64,000 bases of DNA from Thermodesulfobacterium sp. TA1 (GCF_008630935.1 NZ_CP043908.1:496001-560000); one strand, 5' to 3'. Shown: positions 50,379 through 64,000, counted from the first letter of the stretch. The notes: generated by a model not told the origin, from the sequence alone. Numbers and translations are program-made.

Positions 50379-50464
50379 AGCCGGGGTGGCGGAATAGGCA
50401 GACGCGCTGGATTCAGGATCCAGTGGGAGCTAATCCCGTGCGGGTTCAAATCCCGCCCCCGGCA
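50379..50464 (+). tRNA. tRNA-Leu (anticodon CAG)
   Basis: The 86-base sequence folds as a class II tRNA: acceptor GCCGGGG/CCCCGGC, anticodon stem CTGGA/TCCAG around loop TTCAGGA, a long variable arm TGGGA/TCCC(G), and T arm GCGGG-TTCAAAT-CCCGC. The discriminator is A and CCA is not encoded. It begins one base after the EAL gene. A truncated integrase-like frame and mobile relics follow its 3' end, as at a tRNA integration site. Confidence 0.95.
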
Positions 50465-50518
50465 CTTTTCACAATCAAAATTCTCCGTAACACCCCCCTG
50501 TGTAATATCTGGCTTTTT

Positions 50519-51379: not shown

Positions 51380-51452
51380 TAAAAAAACAACAACCTTCTT
51401 GACTTTTTTAAAAATGATGTTACATAATTTTTTATTATAATATCTTGATACA

Positions 51453-51852
51453 CTAAAGTTGTAGAGGTTAACCTTGTTTTTAGCCCTATTACAAGGCAGA
51501 GATAGAGAGGCTAAAGAAGCTTCTTACTGGCAAGCAAATTGTAGAGATAGAAAGAGAGGGTATTAAGTGGACAAAAGATGAAGTCTCAAGGGAGAAATCC
51601 TAAGGTAGAGAGCCTCGAGGCAGTTGGTTGGGTATATCTGGCAATAGTGCTTGACTGGTACACGAAGAAGGTAGTTGGTTGGAACCTCTCGTTAAGAGGG
51701 AGGAAAGTTCTATGATAACGGTATTAGATATGGCAGTCCTCTGCAATCCGAAGGCCAAAGATGCTTGCTTCTGTAAGAATCATGAAATGAAGACAATAAA
51801 AGAAGATGTTATCTGGCTTAATGAATTTGCGACCTGACCTCTACAACTTTAG
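51453..51852. mobile_element. Deleted IS3-like relic with perfect 16-base terminal repeats
   Basis: CTAAAGTTGTAGAGGT (51453-51468) is repeated in reverse complement at 51837-51852, bounding exactly 400 bases. Inside, plus-strand fragments read AEIERLKKLLTGKQ, like the small IS3 orfA protein, VYLAIVLDWYTKKVVGWNLS, like the IS3 integrase core, and KTIKEDVIWLNEF. Frames are broken and most of the transposase is missing, so it could move only in trans. Confidence 0.8.
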
Positions 51853-51913: not shown

Positions 51914-52693
51914 ATGAAAGTATTAACTTATTTAGCAGTCTTAATTTTATTTTTTTCAAGCAAAGCTTATCCCTTTTCAAATGAAAAGGTTAGTGCACGA
52001 AACCTTTTTATGACTACAGCAGGCTCTGTAGTAGAAACTGATAAAAAACAAAGTTCCTCACCAACAACTAAAAAAGATTCAAAGAAAGATACGAAAAGTA
52101 TAGTAAAAATTCCAAGCGGTTTGAGTATAGAGGTTGTTAAATTTGAAAATGGTAAAGGTATTTCGGTCAATCCACAACAGTATCGTTTCAAAACCGGAGA
52201 TGAATTTATTGTGAAATTTCAGACTAACGTTCCAGGAGTAGTTAAGGTTTATAACATAAATCCTAAGAATCGAATTAATCATCTTGGAACATGGATAATC
52301 AAAAAAGGTTTTATGATGACACAATTACCACCTAATGAAGGAACTTTTAAATTTATAAATACTAAAGGTAAAGAAAAATTAATTTTTGAGTTTTATCCTT
52401 GCAAAGTTGAGGAACAAATTCTTAAACAATATACATCAGTTAGAGACATCGTTCTTGTAGATAATACTGACCAACAGTCTATCAAATATAATGACGAATT
52501 TTCAAATTATCTTCCGGTATGTTATAGATTGAAATCACAAATTGAAACCAAAAGAGTAAGCAGTAGAGATATAATTCTTACTTCTACTGCAGATTTGATT
52601 AAGTTTGAAGATGGAGCTAATTTTGCGATTTCAGAGGTTCATAATAAAAATACAAAACCTATCGTAGCATTAATAGAGTTGAGGCATAAGTAA
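51914..52693 (+). CDS. Exported DUF4384-like protein
   Basis: This 259-residue protein has a signal peptide (VLTYLAVLILFFSSKAYPF), then a Ser/Lys-rich linker to about residue 65. A beta-rich domain follows: YRFKTGDEFIVKFQTNVPG, VVKVYNINPKNRINHLG and KEKLIFEFYPC. That pattern resembles DUF4384, a domain often found with caspase-like proteases, which supports a link to the protease two genes downstream. The C-terminal half has no match I recognise. It has its own ribosome site (GAAGGGGG) and starts the operon 61 bases after an IS3-like relic. Confidence 0.65.
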   Translation: MKVLTYLAVLILFFSSKAYPFSNEKVSARNLFMTTAGSVVETDKKQSSSPTTKKDSKKDTKSIVKIPSGLSIEVVKFENGKGISVNPQQYRFKTGDEFIVKFQTNVPGVVKVYNINPKNRINHLGTWIIKKGFMMTQLPPNEGTFKFINTKGKEKLIFEFYPCKVEEQILKQYTSVRDIVLVDNTDQQSIKYNDEFSNYLPVCYRLKSQIETKRVSSRDIILTSTADLIKFEDGANFAISEVHNKNTKPIVALIELRHK

Positions 52694-52710
52694 ATCTTCA
52701 AAGTTGTGAA

Positions 52711-53397
52711 ATGTTTATAGCAAAGAAATTCTTATGTTTTTTGATTAGTAATTTTTTAATTCTATCAACCCCTTTGTTGTCATTCGGATTTTCTAATAGT
52801 TGTGAAGACCTATTTAATAATAGTCCTAAGATTGCTCTTATAGATCGAGCATCAAAAGATATTATTAAAGGTTTGGGAGGAGGCTTAATTGTTTGTCTAC
52901 TTGACAATATGCTTCACAAAGATAAAGACAAAGCTAAAGAAAGATGCGTATTTTACACGATCGCAGGAATGGGGGTAGCGGTAGTATACGCAATTAATGA
53001 GTATAACTTACTTCTTTCAAAAAGTCCTTATGAATTACCTAAAACATATCGCCCCCCTCTTTTACAAATAAACAAAATTGAGACAGTAGATCATTCTTCG
53101 CTAAGACCAAAGACAATCTTCAAGGAAAATGAATATGTTATGTTAGTCATAAAGCACACTTTACTTGATTTTGACCCTAAAAAGGCAGTAAATGTGAGAT
53201 ATCTATTTCATTTATATAGAAACTTTGATTACCTCGGAACATTTGAAGAATTAGTTCCCATAATTCAGGGAGAGACCGCAATATCATGGCTCTTTCCTGT
53301 CTGTCCTGGGGCTATCAAGGGAAAATATAAGCTAAAGTTAGAGGTCATAGCTTTAGGGCAAAAAACAAGTGGAGAAGTAGATTGGGAAATAAGATAG
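52711..53397 (+). CDS. Exported protein of unknown function
   Basis: I do not recognise this 228-residue protein. It begins with a signal peptide (FLCFLISNFLILSTPLLSFGF). A glycine-rich hydrophobic stretch (IIKGLGGGLIVCLLDNML) and another hydrophobic segment (FYTIAGMGVAVVYAINEYNLL) could insert in a membrane. The C-terminal 110 residues look beta-rich (NEYVMLVIKHTLLDF, YKLKLEVIALGQKTSGEVDW), like an immunoglobulin-type domain. The end overlaps the caspase-like gene by 16 bases, so translation is coupled and a joint function is likely. Confidence 0.65.
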   Translation: MFIAKKFLCFLISNFLILSTPLLSFGFSNSCEDLFNNSPKIALIDRASKDIIKGLGGGLIVCLLDNMLHKDKDKAKERCVFYTIAGMGVAVVYAINEYNLLLSKSPYELPKTYRPPLLQINKIETVDHSSLRPKTIFKENEYVMLVIKHTLLDFDPKKAVNVRYLFHLYRNFDYLGTFEELVPIIQGETAISWLFPVCPGAIKGKYKLKLEVIALGQKTSGEVDWEIR

Positions 53398-54755
53398 GAA
53401 CATTGTTATTAATGGGTATTATTATTTTGGGATTAAAAACTCCTCTGTTAGGACAAGATTATGCCGAAATAGAGATAGAGAATTTGTTTGATGATATTAA
53501 AAAAGCATTTAAAGTTGCTGGAATTGAAAAGGGGGATATTCAACTTAATGAAGCTGACAAAAAAATTGAACTAAGGGGGGTGTATAAGGATTATGATGAG
53601 TTTTTATCAGCCTTCATGATTGCACAGGCACGAGCAGGTGTTGGGAAGGTTTCTCCTGCCTACGACCCAAAAGTTACGGTAATCAAAACTAAAACAGCTG
53701 AAAAATGTCTATCTTATTTAATACTTGGAAATCCTAAAGAATGTAAAACTTATTCATACTCGCCATATTTTGAAGAGAAGAAAACCTTTGTTTACTTACC
53801 ACCTGAGAGAGAGAGGAAAGAAGTTCCACATAAAGAAAAGAAAAAAAAATGTTTAAAGGAGGCTAAAGAATTAAAAGAAAAAACAGCCGTTGTGATAGCG
53901 GTAGGAGAATATGAAGATACAAAGATTTCAAAGCTTGATGGTCCAACAAATGATGCAAACTTAGTTACTGAAGTTCTAAAAAAACAAGGATATAATACTA
54001 TAGTGCTAAAAGATAAAAATGCAACTCTTAGGAATGTTATACAGACAATAGAAAAAGAAGTAAACGAAGTAAAACCATATGGGACTTTTTTATTATATAT
54101 CTCAACTCATGGAGCACCTATAGAACCAAATGGCATAATCGGTTTCGTAATGTATGATACAAATATTAAAGAAGAAAAATGTAAAACACTTGAAAGAGCG
54201 TTAACTAATGTAAGTCAAAGAGAAAAAGGAGCAGCCAGAGCAAGAGATATAATAGTAACGGCAAACAAGATGTGCAGATTGTTAGAGAATTCCTTAAAAA
54301 TTTCAGATGTATTAAGGATTATAACTTCTACGTATAAGCCTATGAGGGTTATTACAATTGTTGATGCTTGCTACAGCGGGACTGCATTAAAGCCTTTAAT
54401 AGAAAGATTAAAGGATGAGGTGTATAGCCCTGAACCCAAGGTGGTTAGCCAACTTATTCATTCAATTGATAAAGATCTTATTTACATCTCTGCGGCAAGC
54501 GGCAATGAATTAGCCATGGAGTATGAAATGGGAGGGACTTCTTTCGGAGTGTTTACTTATTTCTACTTTGGCAAACTACCAAAGGGCGAGTATAACAGTG
54601 AATTAACTTATAGATTAACTTTTGATGACATAAAAAAAACTTCCTCCAAGGCTTGCAAAAGTATAAAGTCAAGGTATATAGAAAGTAAATGTTCTGATGA
54701 GGGGCAAACTCCGCTTTACATAAAGAACAAGAAGAATTTAGATCCGGTTTTTTAA
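53382..54755 (+). CDS. Exported caspase-like cysteine protease (peptidase C14 fold)
   Basis: This 457-residue protein has a signal peptide (about residues 1-24, ending LLGQ) and a BON-like segment (IQLNEADKKIELRGVY to GVGKVSP, residues 53-91). A basic linker rich in Lys and Glu leads into a caspase-type domain from residue 168 (AVVIAVGEYEDTKISKLDGPTNDA). The dyad is visible: His243 in LLYISTHGAP and Cys330 in ITIVDACYSGTA; ISAASGNELAMEY and GVFTYFYFGKL follow. The signal peptide places it in the periplasm or outside. It starts at TTG 53382 inside the preceding gene. Substrate and activation are unknown. Confidence 0.85.
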   Translation: MGNKIGTLLLMGIIILGLKTPLLGQDYAEIEIENLFDDIKKAFKVAGIEKGDIQLNEADKKIELRGVYKDYDEFLSAFMIAQARAGVGKVSPAYDPKVTVIKTKTAEKCLSYLILGNPKECKTYSYSPYFEEKKTFVYLPPERERKEVPHKEKKKKCLKEAKELKEKTAVVIAVGEYEDTKISKLDGPTNDANLVTEVLKKQGYNTIVLKDKNATLRNVIQTIEKEVNEVKPYGTFLLYISTHGAPIEPNGIIGFVMYDTNIKEEKCKTLERALTNVSQREKGAARARDIIVTANKMCRLLENSLKISDVLRIITSTYKPMRVITIVDACYSGTALKPLIERLKDEVYSPEPKVVSQLIHSIDKDLIYISAASGNELAMEYEMGGTSFGVFTYFYFGKLPKGEYNSELTYRLTFDDIKKTSSKACKSIKSRYIESKCSDEGQTPLYIKNKKNLDPVF

Positions 54756-54776
54756 AAAAAAGGTAAAGGAGGGGCT

Positions 54777-55847
54777 ATGGGAAAGTTTGAGGGGATTAAA
54801 CTTGAGCTAGGAGATAGGGCTGGTTTAGAGAATATTCCGCCAAATAAAAGAAAAGAATTTTGCAATGAGATGGATACTTTATATAAAATCGAGAGAAACT
54901 TAATAGATAATATAATCAAGCAAGAAGTGGATCAAAACATTTTGAATGATTCAATAGAAAATTTTTTAAAATTAAAAGAATCTCAGATTGATCAAGACCT
55001 TAACCTCATATTTGATCAGATGCAGAAGGAAAATAAAGAATTAAAAGTAGATGAGATATTAAAGAGACTGAAAGATCATTACGCTCCAGAATTAGTTAAT
55101 GATATTTTGAGTGATTTGAATAAATATACAGAGGAAGACTCCAAGTGGCAAAAAGATATAAGTTACTATGAAACACTATATGGAGACAGGAATTTAGTCG
55201 AACTTTGTAGAGCAAATCCGATTAGGTGGCTTATTCTTTTCATTCTTGGTGCAATTGCAGAAGTAGTAATTCTTCTTATACAAGCTATATTAGGTGGGGA
55301 AGGTTTTAATCCTTTTGTTTTAATTTACGGTGGCTTATTAGCGGTTGGTAGCGGATTGCTTGGGTATGGAGCTGCTCATCTTGAAAGAATTGCGAATGAA
55401 AGAAGAGCTGGGGTTTATAAACCTAAGTCAAAAACTGAATTGTATTTTTCTATATATGCTCCCATACTCATTGGAATTATTCTTATCTTGTTTGTTGCTG
55501 CAGTTAGAGGTTTAGGGGACGAATTTGATGTAAGAATATTTCTTTTTACTGTTTTGTTAGGTTTAGTTGTTAGTTTTTTTGAGTATAAACATATTATGGT
55601 TAAAAAAGGACAAGAAGATGCTTTTGTTTATCTTAAAAAGAAGCAATTAGTATTGGCAACCCAAAAACATAAAAAATTTAAAGAAAATAATTTTAGCTTA
55701 TATAAAGAAATTGAAAATAGAATAAGAACATCGTTTAGTTCAAAGTTTGAAAGAGAGGACAGATTAAAGATTTATAAAGACAAAATTAATCAAAAAATAG
55801 AGGAAATAAATCAAAAGATTCAAGCTCATAGTCAGAAGGGGGTGTGA
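54777..55847 (+). CDS. Four-helix membrane protein with cytoplasmic helical domain
   Basis: I do not recognise this 356-residue protein. Residues 1-148 are soluble, acidic and helical, with coiled-coil character (LKESQIDQDLNLIFDQMQKE). Four membrane helices follow at about 151-171, 178-200, 226-245 and 253-268, then a charged coiled-coil tail (KIYKDKINQKIEEINQKI). There is no signal peptide, so the soluble parts probably face the cytoplasm. It lies 21 bases after the caspase-like gene with AAAGGAGG before the ATG, and one base before the lipoprotein gene. Confidence 0.65.
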   Translation: MGKFEGIKLELGDRAGLENIPPNKRKEFCNEMDTLYKIERNLIDNIIKQEVDQNILNDSIENFLKLKESQIDQDLNLIFDQMQKENKELKVDEILKRLKDHYAPELVNDILSDLNKYTEEDSKWQKDISYYETLYGDRNLVELCRANPIRWLILFILGAIAEVVILLIQAILGGEGFNPFVLIYGGLLAVGSGLLGYGAAHLERIANERRAGVYKPKSKTELYFSIYAPILIGIILILFVAAVRGLGDEFDVRIFLFTVLLGLVVSFFEYKHIMVKKGQEDAFVYLKKKQLVLATQKHKKFKENNFSLYKEIENRIRTSFSSKFEREDRLKIYKDKINQKIEEINQKIQAHSQKGV

Positions 55848-55848
55848 T

Positions 55849-56769
55849 ATGTTGAATATAAAATCAAAAATCTTTTGCCTATTGATTTCCCTTTTTCTTA
55901 TAATTTCTTGTACTTCTGATAAAGGTGCTAAGGGGAGAAGTGTTTTTTTAGCTGGTGGTAATGCCTGGGATTTATTTTCTAAGTATGTAGACTACTTAAA
56001 AGAACAAAATGTTAAGTATAGCCTTAGAAATATGAAAGTTCATTTCTTTGATGGAAAACAGGCGAAAGTCATTACCTATAATTGGCAAGATATGTTAAGA
56101 GGTGAATCTGACCTAAAGACCTGGGAGAAGAAACTAAAAAAATATGAGGCAGTGTATAACGAAACAGAACTAAATAAAGCAAAGAACATCAAAATGGATA
56201 TTTTTTCCTTAGCTGAACAAGCAACCGTAATCATCATAGATGGGAAACCAATTATCGTTGCCTCAGCCCAACCTAAAAAAGATGAAATATCAGAACCCAA
56301 ACCGACCTCTGAAGCAAGTAAGTCTGTAGCAAGTAAGAATGAATGCAGTCCAGACGCAAAGAGGTACATTGATTTAGGCGTTCAGTTTGCAAATAACAAG
56401 AAATTTGAAGATGCTATCAAGGAATTTAAAGAGGCTATAGCTATCTCACCAAAATGCACTCTGGCATATGCTAACTTAATTTCGGCATACATTCAATCCA
56501 AGAACTATAATTTAGCAGTAGATACCTATAAAGAAGGATTAGAAAAAGCAGGAGACGATGGGTTCCTTCATTACGTAGGAGCTATCGCTCACATTAATCG
56601 CAAAGAGTATGACTATGCCCTTATTTCAATCGAGAAAGCAATTAAATTTGGATTCACGGATCCAAATTTTTATAAAAGAGCTGATTTACAGCCTCTTCTT
56701 GTGCATAAAAAAGAACAATTTTGTTCTATTTTAAATCAAAACAAGGTAATAATTAAACCTTGCCTATGA
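55849..56769 (+). CDS. TPR-repeat lipoprotein
   Basis: This 306-residue lipoprotein has a signal peptide with lipobox LIISC (Cys21). A middle region of unknown fold (NAWDLFSKYVDYLKEQNVKY) comes next, then a low-complexity linker (EPKPTSEASKSVASK). At the C-terminus are two to three tetratricopeptide repeats: YIDLGVQFANNKKFEDAIKE, YANLISAYIQSKNYNLAVD and FLHYVGAIAHINRKEYDYAL. TPRs usually bind other proteins, so it could be the adaptor of the caspase module at the membrane. It is the last gene of the operon. Confidence 0.75.
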   Translation: MLNIKSKIFCLLISLFLIISCTSDKGAKGRSVFLAGGNAWDLFSKYVDYLKEQNVKYSLRNMKVHFFDGKQAKVITYNWQDMLRGESDLKTWEKKLKKYEAVYNETELNKAKNIKMDIFSLAEQATVIIIDGKPIIVASAQPKKDEISEPKPTSEASKSVASKNECSPDAKRYIDLGVQFANNKKFEDAIKEFKEAIAISPKCTLAYANLISAYIQSKNYNLAVDTYKEGLEKAGDDGFLHYVGAIAHINRKEYDYALISIEKAIKFGFTDPNFYKRADLQPLLVHKKEQFCSILNQNKVIIKPCL

Positions 56770-57098: not shown

Positions 57099-57620
57099 AT
57101 GACTAAAAAAATCTCACCAGCACTTTTCGGGATTGTTATTCTCTGTTTTTTTCTTCCATGGTTTAGTGTCTCCTGTCAAGGACAAAAGATTATAACTGTT
57201 ACCGGGATTCAGTTGGTTACAGGAACGACTATCGAGGAACCTAAGATGCCTCTGGAGTTGGGCGTAAACCAGAAAAATGAGAAAAGAAAGATAGAAGGCG
57301 AGCCCATTGCAATCCTCATTTTATTGGCTGCTATTGCTGGTTTAGGATTGAATTTCTTACTAAAGGGAAAAAGGAGGGCTGTAGGTAGCGTTGCAGTAGG
57401 AGGTGCTGGGATAAGTTTGCTTCTTATACTTAAATTAAAGCTTGATAAAAATATTATGAAAGAAACAGGAGGAATGTTACAATTAAATAGCGAGATTGGA
57501 TTTTTTCTAACAGCTCTCCTCTTTATTTTCGCCATAGGAGTAAATATCTATTCCCTGATTCAGGAGAGAGAAATGTCTTTGATTATGGGGAAAGATAAAC
57601 CGGACCAACCGGACCAATAA
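57099..57620 (+). CDS. Small membrane protein of unknown function
   Basis: This 173-residue protein has a first hydrophobic segment ending in a conserved-looking motif (LCFFLPWFSVSCQGQKI), an exposed loop and three further hydrophobic segments (AILILLAAIAGLGLNFLL, VAVGGAGISLLLILKL, FFLTALLFIFAIGVNIYSL). The tail is hydrophilic and ends PDQPDQ. The FLPWFSVSC start recalls a group of short uncharacterised membrane proteins. It has a strong ribosome site and stands alone between two remnant regions. Confidence 0.65.
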   Translation: MTKKISPALFGIVILCFFLPWFSVSCQGQKIITVTGIQLVTGTTIEEPKMPLELGVNQKNEKRKIEGEPIAILILLAAIAGLGLNFLLKGKRRAVGSVAVGGAGISLLLILKLKLDKNIMKETGGMLQLNSEIGFFLTALLFIFAIGVNIYSLIQEREMSLIMGKDKPDQPDQ

Positions 57621-57882: not shown

Positions 57883-58968
57883 GTAGTGTCTCATTAATTG
57901 TGTAAAGCATTGAGGGAAAGGGAAGGGTATGGTAGCTTCCCCAATGCATAATAACCAAAACTACCAGAAAGGAGGGGAAGCTACCGTGAAAAAAAACTAA
58001 AACTTTAACAAAACAACCTATAGAAGGGATTCTAAACTTTTTTCAGCAAGAAGTCAACAATCTTATTAAAAACCTTTTAGAAAACCTTATGCTTGAAGAA
58101 AGAAGGATTTATTTAGAAGAGCAAGAAGACTATGCAAACGGTTTTTATACCAGAGATTTACTTTTCGTGCCTTCCTACTTCCTGAAAGAAGGAGGGCTGA
58201 AAAGCATTTCCCGATTAATAAAGGTGACTGAAGATGAAGTTAAAAAACTTATTTATCTATTCGTCGAAATGAGGTAGCAAAGGAGCCAGTATATTTAGTT
58301 TTAGGGATAAAGCCTGATGGGAGAAGAGAGATACTTGGATTTTGGATATTTGGGTATGCCAGGGAGAGTGCCAGGAATTGGGAAAACCTTTAAGAGAGTT
58401 AAATCGGCGTGGGGTAAAGAAAGTTCAACTTTTTATTACGGATGATTTGCCTGGGATAGAAAATGCCATAAAGATGGTTTATCCAGCTTCGGAATGGCAA
58501 CTTTGTGTATTACATACTGTAAGGAATTCTTTAAATAAGGTGCGGGCAAAAGATAGAGGTTTATTTGCAGAAGATTTAAAAAGGATATATAGAGCAGAAA
58601 CAGAAGAAAGAGCTAAGGAGGGGATATTAAGATTAAGGGAAAGATGGGGTAAGATATATCCTAAGGTAGTGAAGAAATGGGAGGATAAAGCGTATGCATT
58701 ATTAACCTTTTTGAGGTATCCGAGAGAGATAAGGCAGTTTATTTATACAACTAATCAGGTTGAGAGGTTAGCGAAAGAGATAAAAAGGAGGATAAAGGTA
58801 ATAGAAGTATTTCCGGATGAAGGCTCTGTTGAGAGGTTGTTATATTTAATCTTGAAAGAACTGAGTGAGAGGTTAAACTCAAGGAAGTTAAGAGGGTTTA
58901 ATGAAATTGAATTGGGGAACTACCATGCCTTTCCCGGAAAAATTTTTATACAATAAAAGAGACACTAT
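57883..58968 (+). mobile_element. IS256-like element, copy B (internally deleted)
   Basis: Left end GTAGTGTCTCATTAATTGTG and right end complementary to ATAGTGTCTCTTTTATTGTA flank a second copy close to copy A. The start-site hairpin is at 57931-57942 with 57974-57985. Relative to A it lacks 54 bases after the YTRDLL codons, has two fewer A in the run after GTG, and lacks A's TTTG duplication. The terminal repeats remain recognisable, so it could be moved by a transposase supplied in trans. Confidence 0.85.
57986..58956 (+). pseudogene. Broken IS256/mutator-type transposase, copy B
   Basis: The start at GTG 57986 is frameshifted at once by a shortened A run. Fragments in phase are 58089-58277 (LEERRIYLEEQEDYANGFYT to VEMR) and 58342-58956, which carries VQLFITDDLPGIENAIK with the second catalytic Asp and TTNQVERLAKEIKRR with the Glu. 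The first catalytic Asp is lost in the same central deletion as in copy A. The long C-terminal half is intact over 200 codons. Confidence 0.85.
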
Positions 58969-60462: not shown

Positions 60463-62622
60463 TTAAGCAAAGCTTGCAAATCCTGTTTCATAAAGTTGCC
60501 TAAGCATTAACAAGATTTTTTTAGCTGCGTTTTGATATTTAATTGCATCACGCTGTCCTGTTTGTTTTACTTGTTGGACAGGACTTTCAGATTGATTAGG
60601 TTCTTCTGATAGCTGTTGTTTCTGCTGTGTTGATTGATCTTGTTGGGTACTTTCTTGATAAACATTTTTTGAGGTTTTATCCTGAAATTTTTCAATGAAG
60701 AAGGCTAAATCATCAGTAATTGGTATTCTTTCAATCCCTGTTAATATTTTCCAGACTTTCTTTTTAAAGTCATCAAATTTTTCATTTTCATAATTTTCTA
60801 CAGGATTTTTTAAACACCAATTCAAAATTAGCCACAAAGGTCTTTCTAATTTTTGCCTTGGTCCGTGAAATTTAGGTAAAACTTTCATTAAAACTGCATA
60901 GTCTAAGGCGGTATTTTCATCCAATTTCCCTACAACATCTGGTGCATTTGTAGCATATTTTACAAATAAGGCTATTTCATTTAAGACTCTATAGCCAAAG
61001 TGTAAATCATAGGGTTGTAAATTATTGTTTAATTTAATAAGTTCAGTTAGTTTTCCGTTGTTTTTTAAGTTCTCTATAGCCTCTTCAACTTCTGTTTTAT
61101 CAGCTATAGCTCCGCAAAAATTTCCGTTATTTTTAAAATCTTGAAGTATTGTTTGACTAATTTCTTTGGCTGTTCGGTTTGATCCATCTTCGTCAATTTT
61201 AGAAAAAGCATATTTATCAAAATCAATCTCTCTAAACTCTAAAGTAAAGGCCCGGTCTAAAACTTTTGGACTAAACATGTAAGTTGTTTCGTCTATATTT
61301 ACAGTTCCTATGATGTAGAGGTTAGGCGGAAGTTTAATTTCCGAAGGAATTTCATTTTCCCTTAGGTCTTTAACGTTTTCAAGTGAGTGAAGTTTTATGC
61401 TTTCCTTTGTCCAACCATTTTCATCTCTTCCAGATTCTAATACACTTAAAAAATCCGAAAAGTAATATTCAACATGTGAAAGGTTCATTTCATCAAGAAT
61501 GATGAAGTATGGATTAGCATTTTCTTTATTTTTCTGGTAATCATTTTTTGCTCTCAAAATAAATTTAAGAAATGGTGTACTTTCATAGTTTTCTGTGATT
61601 GGATTGTAATATCCAAGCAAAGCTTTTCCATCTCTCCAATCGGGTCTAACAGAAAGAAAGATATGAGTACAAGTATCACATTCGGTATCAGGTTTAATTT
61701 CTGTTTCTTGACTGTTTTTTTTATGGCATTTATCACAGGGGCACAATAGTTCAGCAAAAAGTTGAGCCAATTTTGTCTTTCCTGTTCCCGAAAGTCCAGA
61801 GAGAATTACAAAACCTTTGGTCTTGAGGGCAGAGTAAAAAGCTGTAATTTGATCAGGATTGAAATAAAAGCCTTCAGATAGAAAGTAAGAAGCAAGATTA
61901 ATTTTTTTTAGATATTTCTCAATTTCTTGATTTAAAACATCTTCATTATATGTATTTTCGTATTTTTTATCTATCAACCAAAACAGAAATCCATCTACAT
62001 CATAAAAGTTTATTTCTTTCCTACCAATTAATTCGTTATAAGTGTTCAATAAATTATTATTATTCTGCATAATGTTTAAAATCTCTTGTTGAAGCTCTCC
62101 AATATGTTCATAATTTTCTACATAATTTTTTATTTGAAAGTTAAAAAGTTCCAATACTTTTAAACTTTTTAATTTATCTATCATTTCTTTATATTTTTTT
62201 TCATTTTGAATCCAATAGTGATGTGGATAAAAAACACAGAGTATTTCTGTAGTTACAGCCTTATATTTTTTATCTTTTAGTTTAAGTACAATTCCCTTAA
62301 TTTCACCATCTGAAAGTCTTCTATTTTCTTTTTCTGCTTTATTCACCCTTTCTACTATATTATTCAGCCATTGTACTAATTTGTTATTAAGTTCGTTATT
62401 AAGCTTTAAATATTGAGGAGTAGTATAAAGTCTCTTTTTATTAAAAATTTCTTTTATATTTCCTTTTATAAGTTGATTCATTTTAATTTTTTCTAAAATA
62501 TCTTTAAAAAATTTTAAATTGCTTTCTCTTTCCTCTAAATATTCTTTGTTTTCATTTAAAAAGCCAGCATAAATGTTTAACAAAGCCTCAAGTCTTGGCT
62601 TGTTAATGAGAAACTTATCCAT
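60463..62622 (-). CDS. McrB-like AAA+ GTPase/ATPase of a type IV restriction system
   Basis: This 719-residue protein has a helical N-terminal part (1-250) and a McrB-type AAA+ domain: Walker A GLSGTGKT (276-283), IILDEMNLSHVEYYFSDFL and the motif IIGTVNIDETTYMFSPKVL. Directly after Walker A is a cysteine-rich insert (C294, C296, C299, C315, C318) that looks like a metal site. The C-terminus has a Gln/Ser-rich linker. McrB proteins power cutting of modified DNA with a nuclease partner; here the upstream DUF2357 protein is the likely partner. The genes are 12 bases apart. Confidence 0.85.
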   Translation of the reverse strand: MDKFLINKPRLEALLNIYAGFLNENKEYLEERESNLKFFKDILEKIKMNQLIKGNIKEIFNKKRLYTTPQYLKLNNELNNKLVQWLNNIVERVNKAEKENRRLSDGEIKGIVLKLKDKKYKAVTTEILCVFYPHHYWIQNEKKYKEMIDKLKSLKVLELFNFQIKNYVENYEHIGELQQEILNIMQNNNNLLNTYNELIGRKEINFYDVDGFLFWLIDKKYENTYNEDVLNQEIEKYLKKINLASYFLSEGFYFNPDQITAFYSALKTKGFVILSGLSGTGKTKLAQLFAELLCPCDKCHKKNSQETEIKPDTECDTCTHIFLSVRPDWRDGKALLGYYNPITENYESTPFLKFILRAKNDYQKNKENANPYFIILDEMNLSHVEYYFSDFLSVLESGRDENGWTKESIKLHSLENVKDLRENEIPSEIKLPPNLYIIGTVNIDETTYMFSPKVLDRAFTLEFREIDFDKYAFSKIDEDGSNRTAKEISQTILQDFKNNGNFCGAIADKTEVEEAIENLKNNGKLTELIKLNNNLQPYDLHFGYRVLNEIALFVKYATNAPDVVGKLDENTALDYAVLMKVLPKFHGPRQKLERPLWLILNWCLKNPVENYENEKFDDFKKKVWKILTGIERIPITDDLAFFIEKFQDKTSKNVYQESTQQDQSTQQKQQLSEEPNQSESPVQQVKQTGQRDAIKYQNAAKKILLMLRQLYETGFASFA

Positions 62623-62634
62623 CTTATCACCCCC

Positions 62635-64000
62635 TTATTTACTCTTGTTTTTATCTTTATTTTCTGGCACCATAGCTATGGCACCAATACCCTGTTTATT
62701 TAAAATTGATTCTAAATCAAACTTATTTTTTTCTTTAGTATTATTAGCATCATAAAACACATTTTCACTTCCTGGATACAACACTAATGCTAATTCACAT
62801 CCCAATGCATCCCTATAAGTGTGCATCTTAAAAAGGTCTTGAATTTTTACCAACTTTTCTAAATCTCCTATTTTAAAGGCTTCTTCTTCAAGTTCGTTAT
62901 CTATCTCCTCTTCTCTCACTAAGTCAAACCTAAACTTGGCATCAAAAACAGCTTTTATCTCCCTTTTGTTTTTAATAAGTGTAAAATCAGGGCGCAAATT
63001 AATCGAATAACTTTCTTCTCCTCTTTTAAAAGTTTTGTTATATACAAGTTCATAACTATCTCCTAAATCTGCTTTAATCTCTGATGCAAGTCCACCTTCT
63101 TGAGCTTCAAATATTTGAAATTTAAGCTCTGATAAGTCTTTACCTAAGGCTTTTGCCAATCTTTTGGCAAGCTCAAAAAAGCACCAATACTCATAGAGTT
63201 TATCTATCCTTCTGTTGTCTATAGCATCTTTTAGCTCATTAAACAAGGGTAATCTTGAAATATTCAAAAGTCGATAAATACTCAAACATTCGCGATATCC
63301 GTCTCTTTTCAACAAAACTTGAGAAGAGTAAGGCAAAAAAGTCACATTACCTACATCTCCAAAAAGCGAACCACTCCTAAAATAACGAACATAGTTTTCT
63401 AATTCTTCTAATTTTGATTGACAGGATTTAGCTTTTTCCCAAAAGTTACGCTTTTTAAATTCTTCACACCAATAGAGAATGATGTCCATAAAACTTTTAA
63501 TAAAACGATTTTCTAGATTATCAAGGGTTTCTATAACATGACGCTCAAAAACTCTCTCTGGGAGATATCCCTTTAGCCTATTTGCTAAGAATTTTAAAAT
63601 ACTTCTTGAAGAAACTTTACGCAAATATTCTGGATGATGAAACATCATAATAATAGTGTCTTCATCAACACTTTTTACTTCATTAGGTAATACCCATCTT
63701 TCATGAGTAATTAAGCTTCTATAAGGATTTTGTGAAATTGTTTGTAAGGCTTGAATAATATCGTCTGCTTTTTGGGTTAAAAGATGAAGAACAAAAATAG
63801 GTGATTGAATTTGAGTATGTTCTTCAGTTGGAAATTCAGTTGGTGATCCTAAATAAAATGGAGCTGAAATGATATACTCTATTATTTCGTCAATTAAGTT
63901 TTTTAAAAATTTTGGATAAAAAAGAGGATCTTCTTCATTATTAATTGGGGTTTTACTTGAAATAATCTCTATTGGATCCGTCTTAATTTCTTGACCATTT
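62635..64000 (-). CDS. DUF2357 protein with PD-(D/E)XK nuclease domain (5' end outside window)
   Basis: About 455 codons are visible, and the frame remains open to the right edge; MMFHHPEYLR at 63648 is internal. The N-terminal visible part matches the helical style of DUF2357. The C-terminal part has a PD-(D/E)XK nuclease core: LRPDFTLIKNKREIKAVFDAKF, in which PDF and DAK supply the metal and catalytic residues. DUF2357 nucleases pair with McrB-like AAA proteins as modification-dependent restriction systems, replacing McrC. It is first in a three-gene operon with McrB and the Cas4-like nuclease. Confidence 0.8.
   Translation of the reverse strand, partial: NGQEIKTDPIEIISSKTPINNEEDPLFYPKFLKNLIDEIIEYIISAPFYLGSPTEFPTEEHTQIQSPIFVLHLLTQKADDIIQALQTISQNPYRSLITHERWVLPNEVKSVDEDTIIMMFHHPEYLRKVSSRSILKFLANRLKGYLPERVFERHVIETLDNLENRFIKSFMDIILYWCEEFKKRNFWEKAKSCQSKLEELENYVRYFRSGSLFGDVGNVTFLPYSSQVLLKRDGYRECLSIYRLLNISRLPLFNELKDAIDNRRIDKLYEYWCFFELAKRLAKALGKDLSELKFQIFEAQEGGLASEIKADLGDSYELVYNKTFKRGEESYSINLRPDFTLIKNKREIKAVFDAKFRFDLVREEEIDNELEEEAFKIGDLEKLVKIQDLFKMHTYRDALGCELALVLYPGSENVFYDANNTKEKNKFDLESILNKQGIGAIAMVPENKDKNKSK

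Follow-up and report, generated by a model that had tools for sequence, protein, structure and literature searches.

A conserved operon in Thermodesulfobacterium sp. TA1 predicted to encode an exported caspase and a motif-sharing partner

Analysis of a 64,000-nucleotide stretch of the 1.83-Mb genome of Thermodesulfobacterium sp. TA1 (referred to here as the window) identified an operon that we interpret as an envelope proteolytic module, its activity, specificity, partner cleavage, compartment and the roles of its further genes all being predicted from sequence. The data point to g3, an exported caspase-like protease, as a self-processing envelope caspase that cuts the co-encoded exported protein g1; we favour this reading with moderate confidence, which applies to the core step of g1 cleavage by g3 and not to its physiological role. 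The broader proposal of an envelope caspase cascade, in which an exported self-activating caspase also cuts an exported protein from its own operon, at a sequence common to both, and the motifs of the two proteins coevolve across five phyla, is in our judgement evenly balanced. In the scheme that we propose, g3 would be an orthocaspase with Lys/Arg specificity. It would first cut itself at a short motif, located in the p20-p10 linker in one clade (K-clade) and in a C-terminal loop in the other (R-clade, which includes the window), and would then cut g1 at copies of the motif, x-[GAS]-K/R↓D/S-[IL]. The g2 and g5 proteins, of which many are probably lipoproteins, would anchor the complex to a membrane, and in the thermophile variant g4 and g6 would link it to the inner membrane. 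More speculatively, an envelope response might be switched by the cleavage of g1.

The five ORFs that the earlier note had placed at this locus are all present on the plus strand. They encode an exported DUF4384-like protein of 259 aa, the proposed partner or substrate (g1, 51914..52693); an exported protein whose orthologs carry a glycine zipper followed by a C-terminal domain (g2, 52711..53397); an exported protease of 457 aa with a TTG start codon, a BON-like segment and a caspase (Peptidase_C14) domain (g3, 53382..54755); a membrane protein with four hydrophobic helices (g4, 54777..55847); and a lipoprotein that combines TPRs with a "GGNAWxLF" domain at its N-terminus (g5, 55849..56769). 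The intergenic distances from g1 to g5 are 17, -16, 21 and 1 bases, which bears out the 16-base overlap (between g2 and g3) and the one-base gap described before, and a Shine-Dalgarno-like sequence precedes g1, g4 and g5. The set had been described as five genes, and a sixth co-conserved gene was overlooked: g6 (57099..57620, +), which starts 329 bases downstream of g5, encodes another four-helix membrane protein and shares 36% identity with the gene adjoining g5 at locus L005. The surroundings are also as described, with a tRNA-Leu gene (50380-50465) upstream of the operon, and an IS256-type transposase fragment (58342-58956) and an McrB-like AAA gene downstream. The McrB-like gene (PADLOC PDC-M26A) and an adjacent minus-strand gene occupy 60463-64000, running past the window edge, and are likely to form a restriction system; apparent transposase remnants were seen by eye upstream of the operon (51430-51850).

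Co-occurrence of the genes in other genomes had been named beforehand as a check, and the set does recur. With per-gene HMMs, g1, g2 and g3 were found adjacent and in this order at 36 of 39 caspase-bearing loci, usually followed by g5; the exceptions are L068 (g2-g3-g1), L107 and L108. The module occurs in five phyla, and the same gene order in distant phyla indicates more than a chance grouping. Its distribution is patchy, at 0.5-5% of sampled genomes: the caspase was detected in 7/136 Aquificota, 9/346 Nitrospirota and 2/95 Methylomirabilota genomes, in 2/399 genomes of a Pseudomonadota order and in 5/395 of the window's own phylum. A scan of public-genome contigs with the window caspase alone as query returned no relative; 26 loci came from the scan with an alignment as query. 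Within the window's order, g1 was found in 4 of 41 genomes. A genome of the same family but another genus (G018, locus L005) holds all six genes in the same order, with identities to g1-g6 of the window of 33, 23, 32, 36, 45 and 36%, and between g4 and g5 carries one more membrane gene, which has no Pfam match (L005:10057-11115). Another genome (G024) has the first three genes only; g1 and g2 look intact and the caspase (L006:7158-8033) ends just before the catalytic Cys, so that this locus is a decaying copy of the module. The persistence of g1 and g2 next to a truncated caspase weighs against the model of g1 cleavage. A profile search within the phylum picked out three distant loci that match g3 in its N-terminal segment as well as in its caspase domain, and their neighbourhoods read g1-g2-g3-g5. 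Beyond the window, g4 was found at L005, L066 and the Aquificota loci L096, L097 and L100. The g3 tree comprises two clades, the K-clade (28 loci) and the R-clade (the window, G018 and Aquificota). The window g3 clusters with that of Aquificota L100 rather than with G018 of its own family, a join that may be false given the long branches there; exchange of the module between thermophile lineages is possible.

Protease and partner are also linked by a short motif. The g1 and g3 proteins are non-homologous, yet they share G-[GAS]-K-[SD]-[IL]; in the clade that includes the window, its form is R-[DSN]-I. K-clade g1 proteins carry the motif or a close variant, as GSKDIV, GKKDIV and often GAKSL, and directly behind their signal peptide stands a related sequence, GAKA[IL]F. 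K-clade g3 proteins have sites at about Cys+18 (GGKSLG), at Cys+42/43 (GSKDIV) and sometimes at Cys+60, that is, in the p20-p10 linker, the classical site of caspase self-cleavage. Across 14 K-clade representatives, g1 contains the strict motif 24 times and g3 contains it 29 times, where shuffles lead one to expect about 0.2 for each; the counts come from related orthologs that are not independent of one another. The same representatives have it once in g2 and never in g5, and a close variant appeared in 4 of 254 flanking ORFs. The large exported proteins that lie beside g1 or g5 at some loci were checked as further substrates and contain no strict motif.

In the R-clade, the K-pattern is nearly absent from g1, which instead has two copies with Arg as the basic residue (YSRSIRLV and YSRSIRTV in G018; SRDIAV and SRNIVV in L097). 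Several R-clade g3 proteins carry one copy in the C-terminal loop (GRSIRV in G018, GRSIVL in L095, GRDIRI in L096 and GRDIVL in L097). The self-site thus seems to have moved to the C-terminal loop in this clade, with a sequence that still resembles that of g1; when all R-clade g3 proteins are taken together, the loose R-pattern was found 9 times against a shuffle mean of 5.2 and maximum of 12, which is not clearly above expectation. In the window, g1 has the two copies RDIVLV (residues 177-182; 52442..52459, +) and RDIILT (residues 218-223; 52565..52582, +), and an N-terminal site, ARNLF (residues 28-32; 51995..52009, +), just after the signal peptide, where the basic residue is K in the K-clade and R in the R-clade. 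The window g3 has two candidate self-sites. One is RDIIVT from R288, between His and Cys (54243..54260, +), modelled as helix, with YRDITV at about the same place in L100; the other is RYIES from R431 (SRYIES) in the C-terminal loop (54672..54686, +), where relatives have GRSIRV, GRSIVL, GRDIRI, GRDIVL or SRSIG. Whichever of the two is considered, the self-site of the window g3 is weak and is the weakest link of the model.

Both copies in the window g1 fall inside segments with pLDDT < 50 in the AlphaFold2 model (175-191 and 209-229). A conserved sequence in disordered segments fits a cleavage or docking motif better than a structural strand, and the idea of a shared beta-strand was set aside, since both copies are disordered in this model. 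If the motif were a docking peptide, a single groove, on g3 or else on g2/g5, would bind g1 and the linker or tail of g3 in competition, and g1 would be an inhibitor or adaptor of the caspase. The disordered placement suits docking as well as cleavage, and conservation reaches the primed side (K-D-I-V-L-E-D), while the specificity of clan CD proteases is mostly unprimed. Against this, K-clade g3 proteins have up to three copies in the very linker where self-cleavage classically occurs; these copies keep the core G-x-K-[SD]-[IL] while their flanks differ (GGKSLG, GSKDIV, GSKSMG); and the basic position remains K or R, as expected of P1. We consider docking unlikely and retain cleavage of g1 by g3 as the preferred reading.

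The motifs also appear to have changed together. At the second residue after the motif Lys, I/L changes were reconstructed four times in each of the two proteins, g1 and g3, and fall on matching places of the g3 tree; the paired changes number 2/2 on well-supported branches and 4/4 on the best tree, and a sign test on so few cases does not reach p 0.05. In the R-clade, the choice between D and S goes in the same direction in those g1/g3 pairs where both differ. Together, these patterns are suggestive of coevolution between the two proteins.

The fold and active site of g3 are consistent with a functional protease. It matches Peptidase_C14 in Pfam with an E value of 1.2e-12 (48.5 bits against a cut-off of 21.4), and its ortholog at L044 scores 68.9 bits. 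The AlphaFold2 model has a mean pLDDT of 82, and residues 155-457 resemble caspases, MALT1, GSU0716 and metacaspases in structure comparison (VIA Z 22); the ortholog profile of g3 matches metacaspases by sequence, and a phmmer search of the PDB with the window g3 found nothing. The intact His-Cys dyad that had been noted corresponds to His243 (54108..54110, +) and Cys330. Among orthologs long enough to show each position, His243 is conserved in 35/35, Asp191 (53952..53954, +) in 36/36, and Asp328 and Cys330 of the DAC sequence (54363..54371, +) in 34/34 each. The BON-like N-terminal segment (about residues 35-94; 53484..53663, +) likewise found support: a profile built from 16 orthologs has an N-terminal part that matches OsmY (8rjx, E 6e-4), and the model has a helix-strand-strand-helix arrangement at residues 22-85. 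Asp191 and Asp328, the predicted acidic residues of the S1 pocket, line up with aspartates that are conserved in metacaspases, within the ND-[AV] and D-x-C motifs, and would occupy the positions of Asp95 and Asp211, which belong to the proposed S1 pocket of TbMCA2 (PMC4357240). The non-animal C14 proteases characterised up to the time of a 2017 review require Arg or Lys at P1 (PMC5756287) and have an acidic pocket (PMC5756287, PMC4357240); a basic (Lys/Arg) P1 specificity is our prediction for g3. The orthocaspase MaOC1 self-processes without further activation (PMC5756287).

The N-termini point to the envelope as the likely place of the module, as had been suggested. In the window, g2, g3 and g5 begin with clear hydrophobic stretches and g1 with a weaker one, and g4 adds its membrane helices. 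Across loci, such a stretch was found in nearly all g1, g2, g3 and g5 proteins, so the module proteins are likely to be exported, and lipobox-like sites were found in about half of g2 and about half of g5, in both cases by a simple hydropathy and pattern test rather than a signal-peptide predictor. We infer that their final compartment is the envelope. The TPRs of g5 score over the Pfam cut-off, and g2 and g4 gave no convincing Pfam match. For g1, the match to DUF4384 (PF14326) scores 17.8 bits in the window against a cut-off of 27; the ortholog in L044, at 35.9 bits, passes. The g1 model (mean pLDDT 68.6) contains a beta-sandwich at 66-161; for the fold of g1, Foldseek returned no match with E < 1e-3 and only weak Ig-like ones. 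Cys163 and Cys203 (PC and LPxC motifs; window 52400-52525) are conserved in most R-clade g1 proteins, and a disulfide between them could keep the fragments joined after cleavage.

In two related genomes (G013 and G007), the same tRNA-Leu is followed directly by other genes and the module is lacking; sharing of this left flank places the window copy in an accessory stretch, in line with the island placement proposed earlier. Such a position, near the McrB-like gene, together with the patchy distribution, would suit a defence or suicide system in which the envelope caspase kills the cell once it detects an entering phage or damage to the surface. Caspase-like proteases serve in gasdermin systems. 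They also occur in predicted conflict systems (PMC8195603). The other copies of the module, however, mostly adjoin ordinary chromosomal genes, with no recurrent defence system nearby and only scattered PADLOC matches. The window g3 had no match in a plasmid collection, nor the L044 g3 in a phage collection. PADLOC scanning of g1, g2, g4 and g5 gave no match below E 0.01, and the PADLOC "caspase" model matches g3 weakly (E 1.1e-7). A role in defence is therefore quite improbable in our view. Among the roles that the earlier note had offered, the phage-entry sensor is not borne out, and the envelope protease switch fits best.

The module may be likened to bacterial gasdermin operons and to Craspase (Csx29-Csx30), in which a caspase-clan protease is co-encoded with a dedicated substrate. 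Those systems act in the cytoplasm, unlike the envelope-directed module, and family scans of the module genes found no Cas homologue and, with Pfam and PADLOC, no gasdermin. A caspase-clan protease with a dedicated partner apparently occurs here in a new place and in a new gene set. Bacterial caspases are numerous, but to our knowledge hardly any has a known natural substrate. Since a likely substrate and likely cut sites can be read from the sequence, what bacterial caspases cut becomes directly testable at this locus. If the model holds, it places caspase action in the cell envelope, of which we know of no previous description.

Prokaryotic orthocaspases and metacaspase-like proteases share with g3 the common fold, the His-Cys dyad and the acidic S1 residues; g3 differs from them in being exported, in its N-terminal BON-like domain and in that a conserved operon supplies its motif-bearing partner as a separate protein. 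As an accessory domain, DUF4384 is already known from orthocaspases, where 23 among 473 cyanobacterial ones have it (PMC8283722). These likewise combine caspase and DUF4384; here, by contrast, the two are separate exported proteins with a shared motif, accompanied by two to four further genes. The best NCBIfam match of g3, the EACC1-associated caspases (NF047832), stays below its cut-off (48.9 bits against 140). The 2017 review counted one biochemically characterised orthocaspase (PMC5756287). Operons with bacterial caspases were surveyed by Asplund-Samuelsson et al. (PMC3501461), and the module is not mentioned in the passages of that survey that were consulted. A search of open-access PMC articles found no description of the gene set, so the system is apparently undescribed, as the earlier note had supposed.

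Several parts of the module, namely the BON segment, the TPR lipoprotein and the glycine zipper, are typical of envelope proteins, and the clusters of L068 and L101-L103 include a tubulin-like GTPase. Both would agree with envelope maintenance or remodelling (quality control, or turnover of the cell wall or outer membrane), with envelope proteins degraded by the caspase and g1 as a scaffold. We find this highly unlikely: the patchy occurrence speaks against housekeeping, and the shared motif suggests a specific partner. Cleavage of g1 by g3 remains the reading that we prefer.

Some loci contain additional genes. The tubulin-like proteins, of 1,000-1,100 aa, are encoded within the cluster before g5 (L101:3577-6879, L102:8862-12173, L103:3641-6967 and L068:3884-6916); the one checked, that of L102, matches PF13809 (E 3e-56). 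The g5 proteins of L101-L103 have a zinc ribbon and a membrane helix added at the N-terminus. An exported protein of about 1,850 aa is encoded divergently beside g1 at four loci (L049:215-5797, L051:340-6069, L052:1-5796 and L067:1-5476), and at L063 a second g2-like gene follows the caspase (L063:9361-10479).
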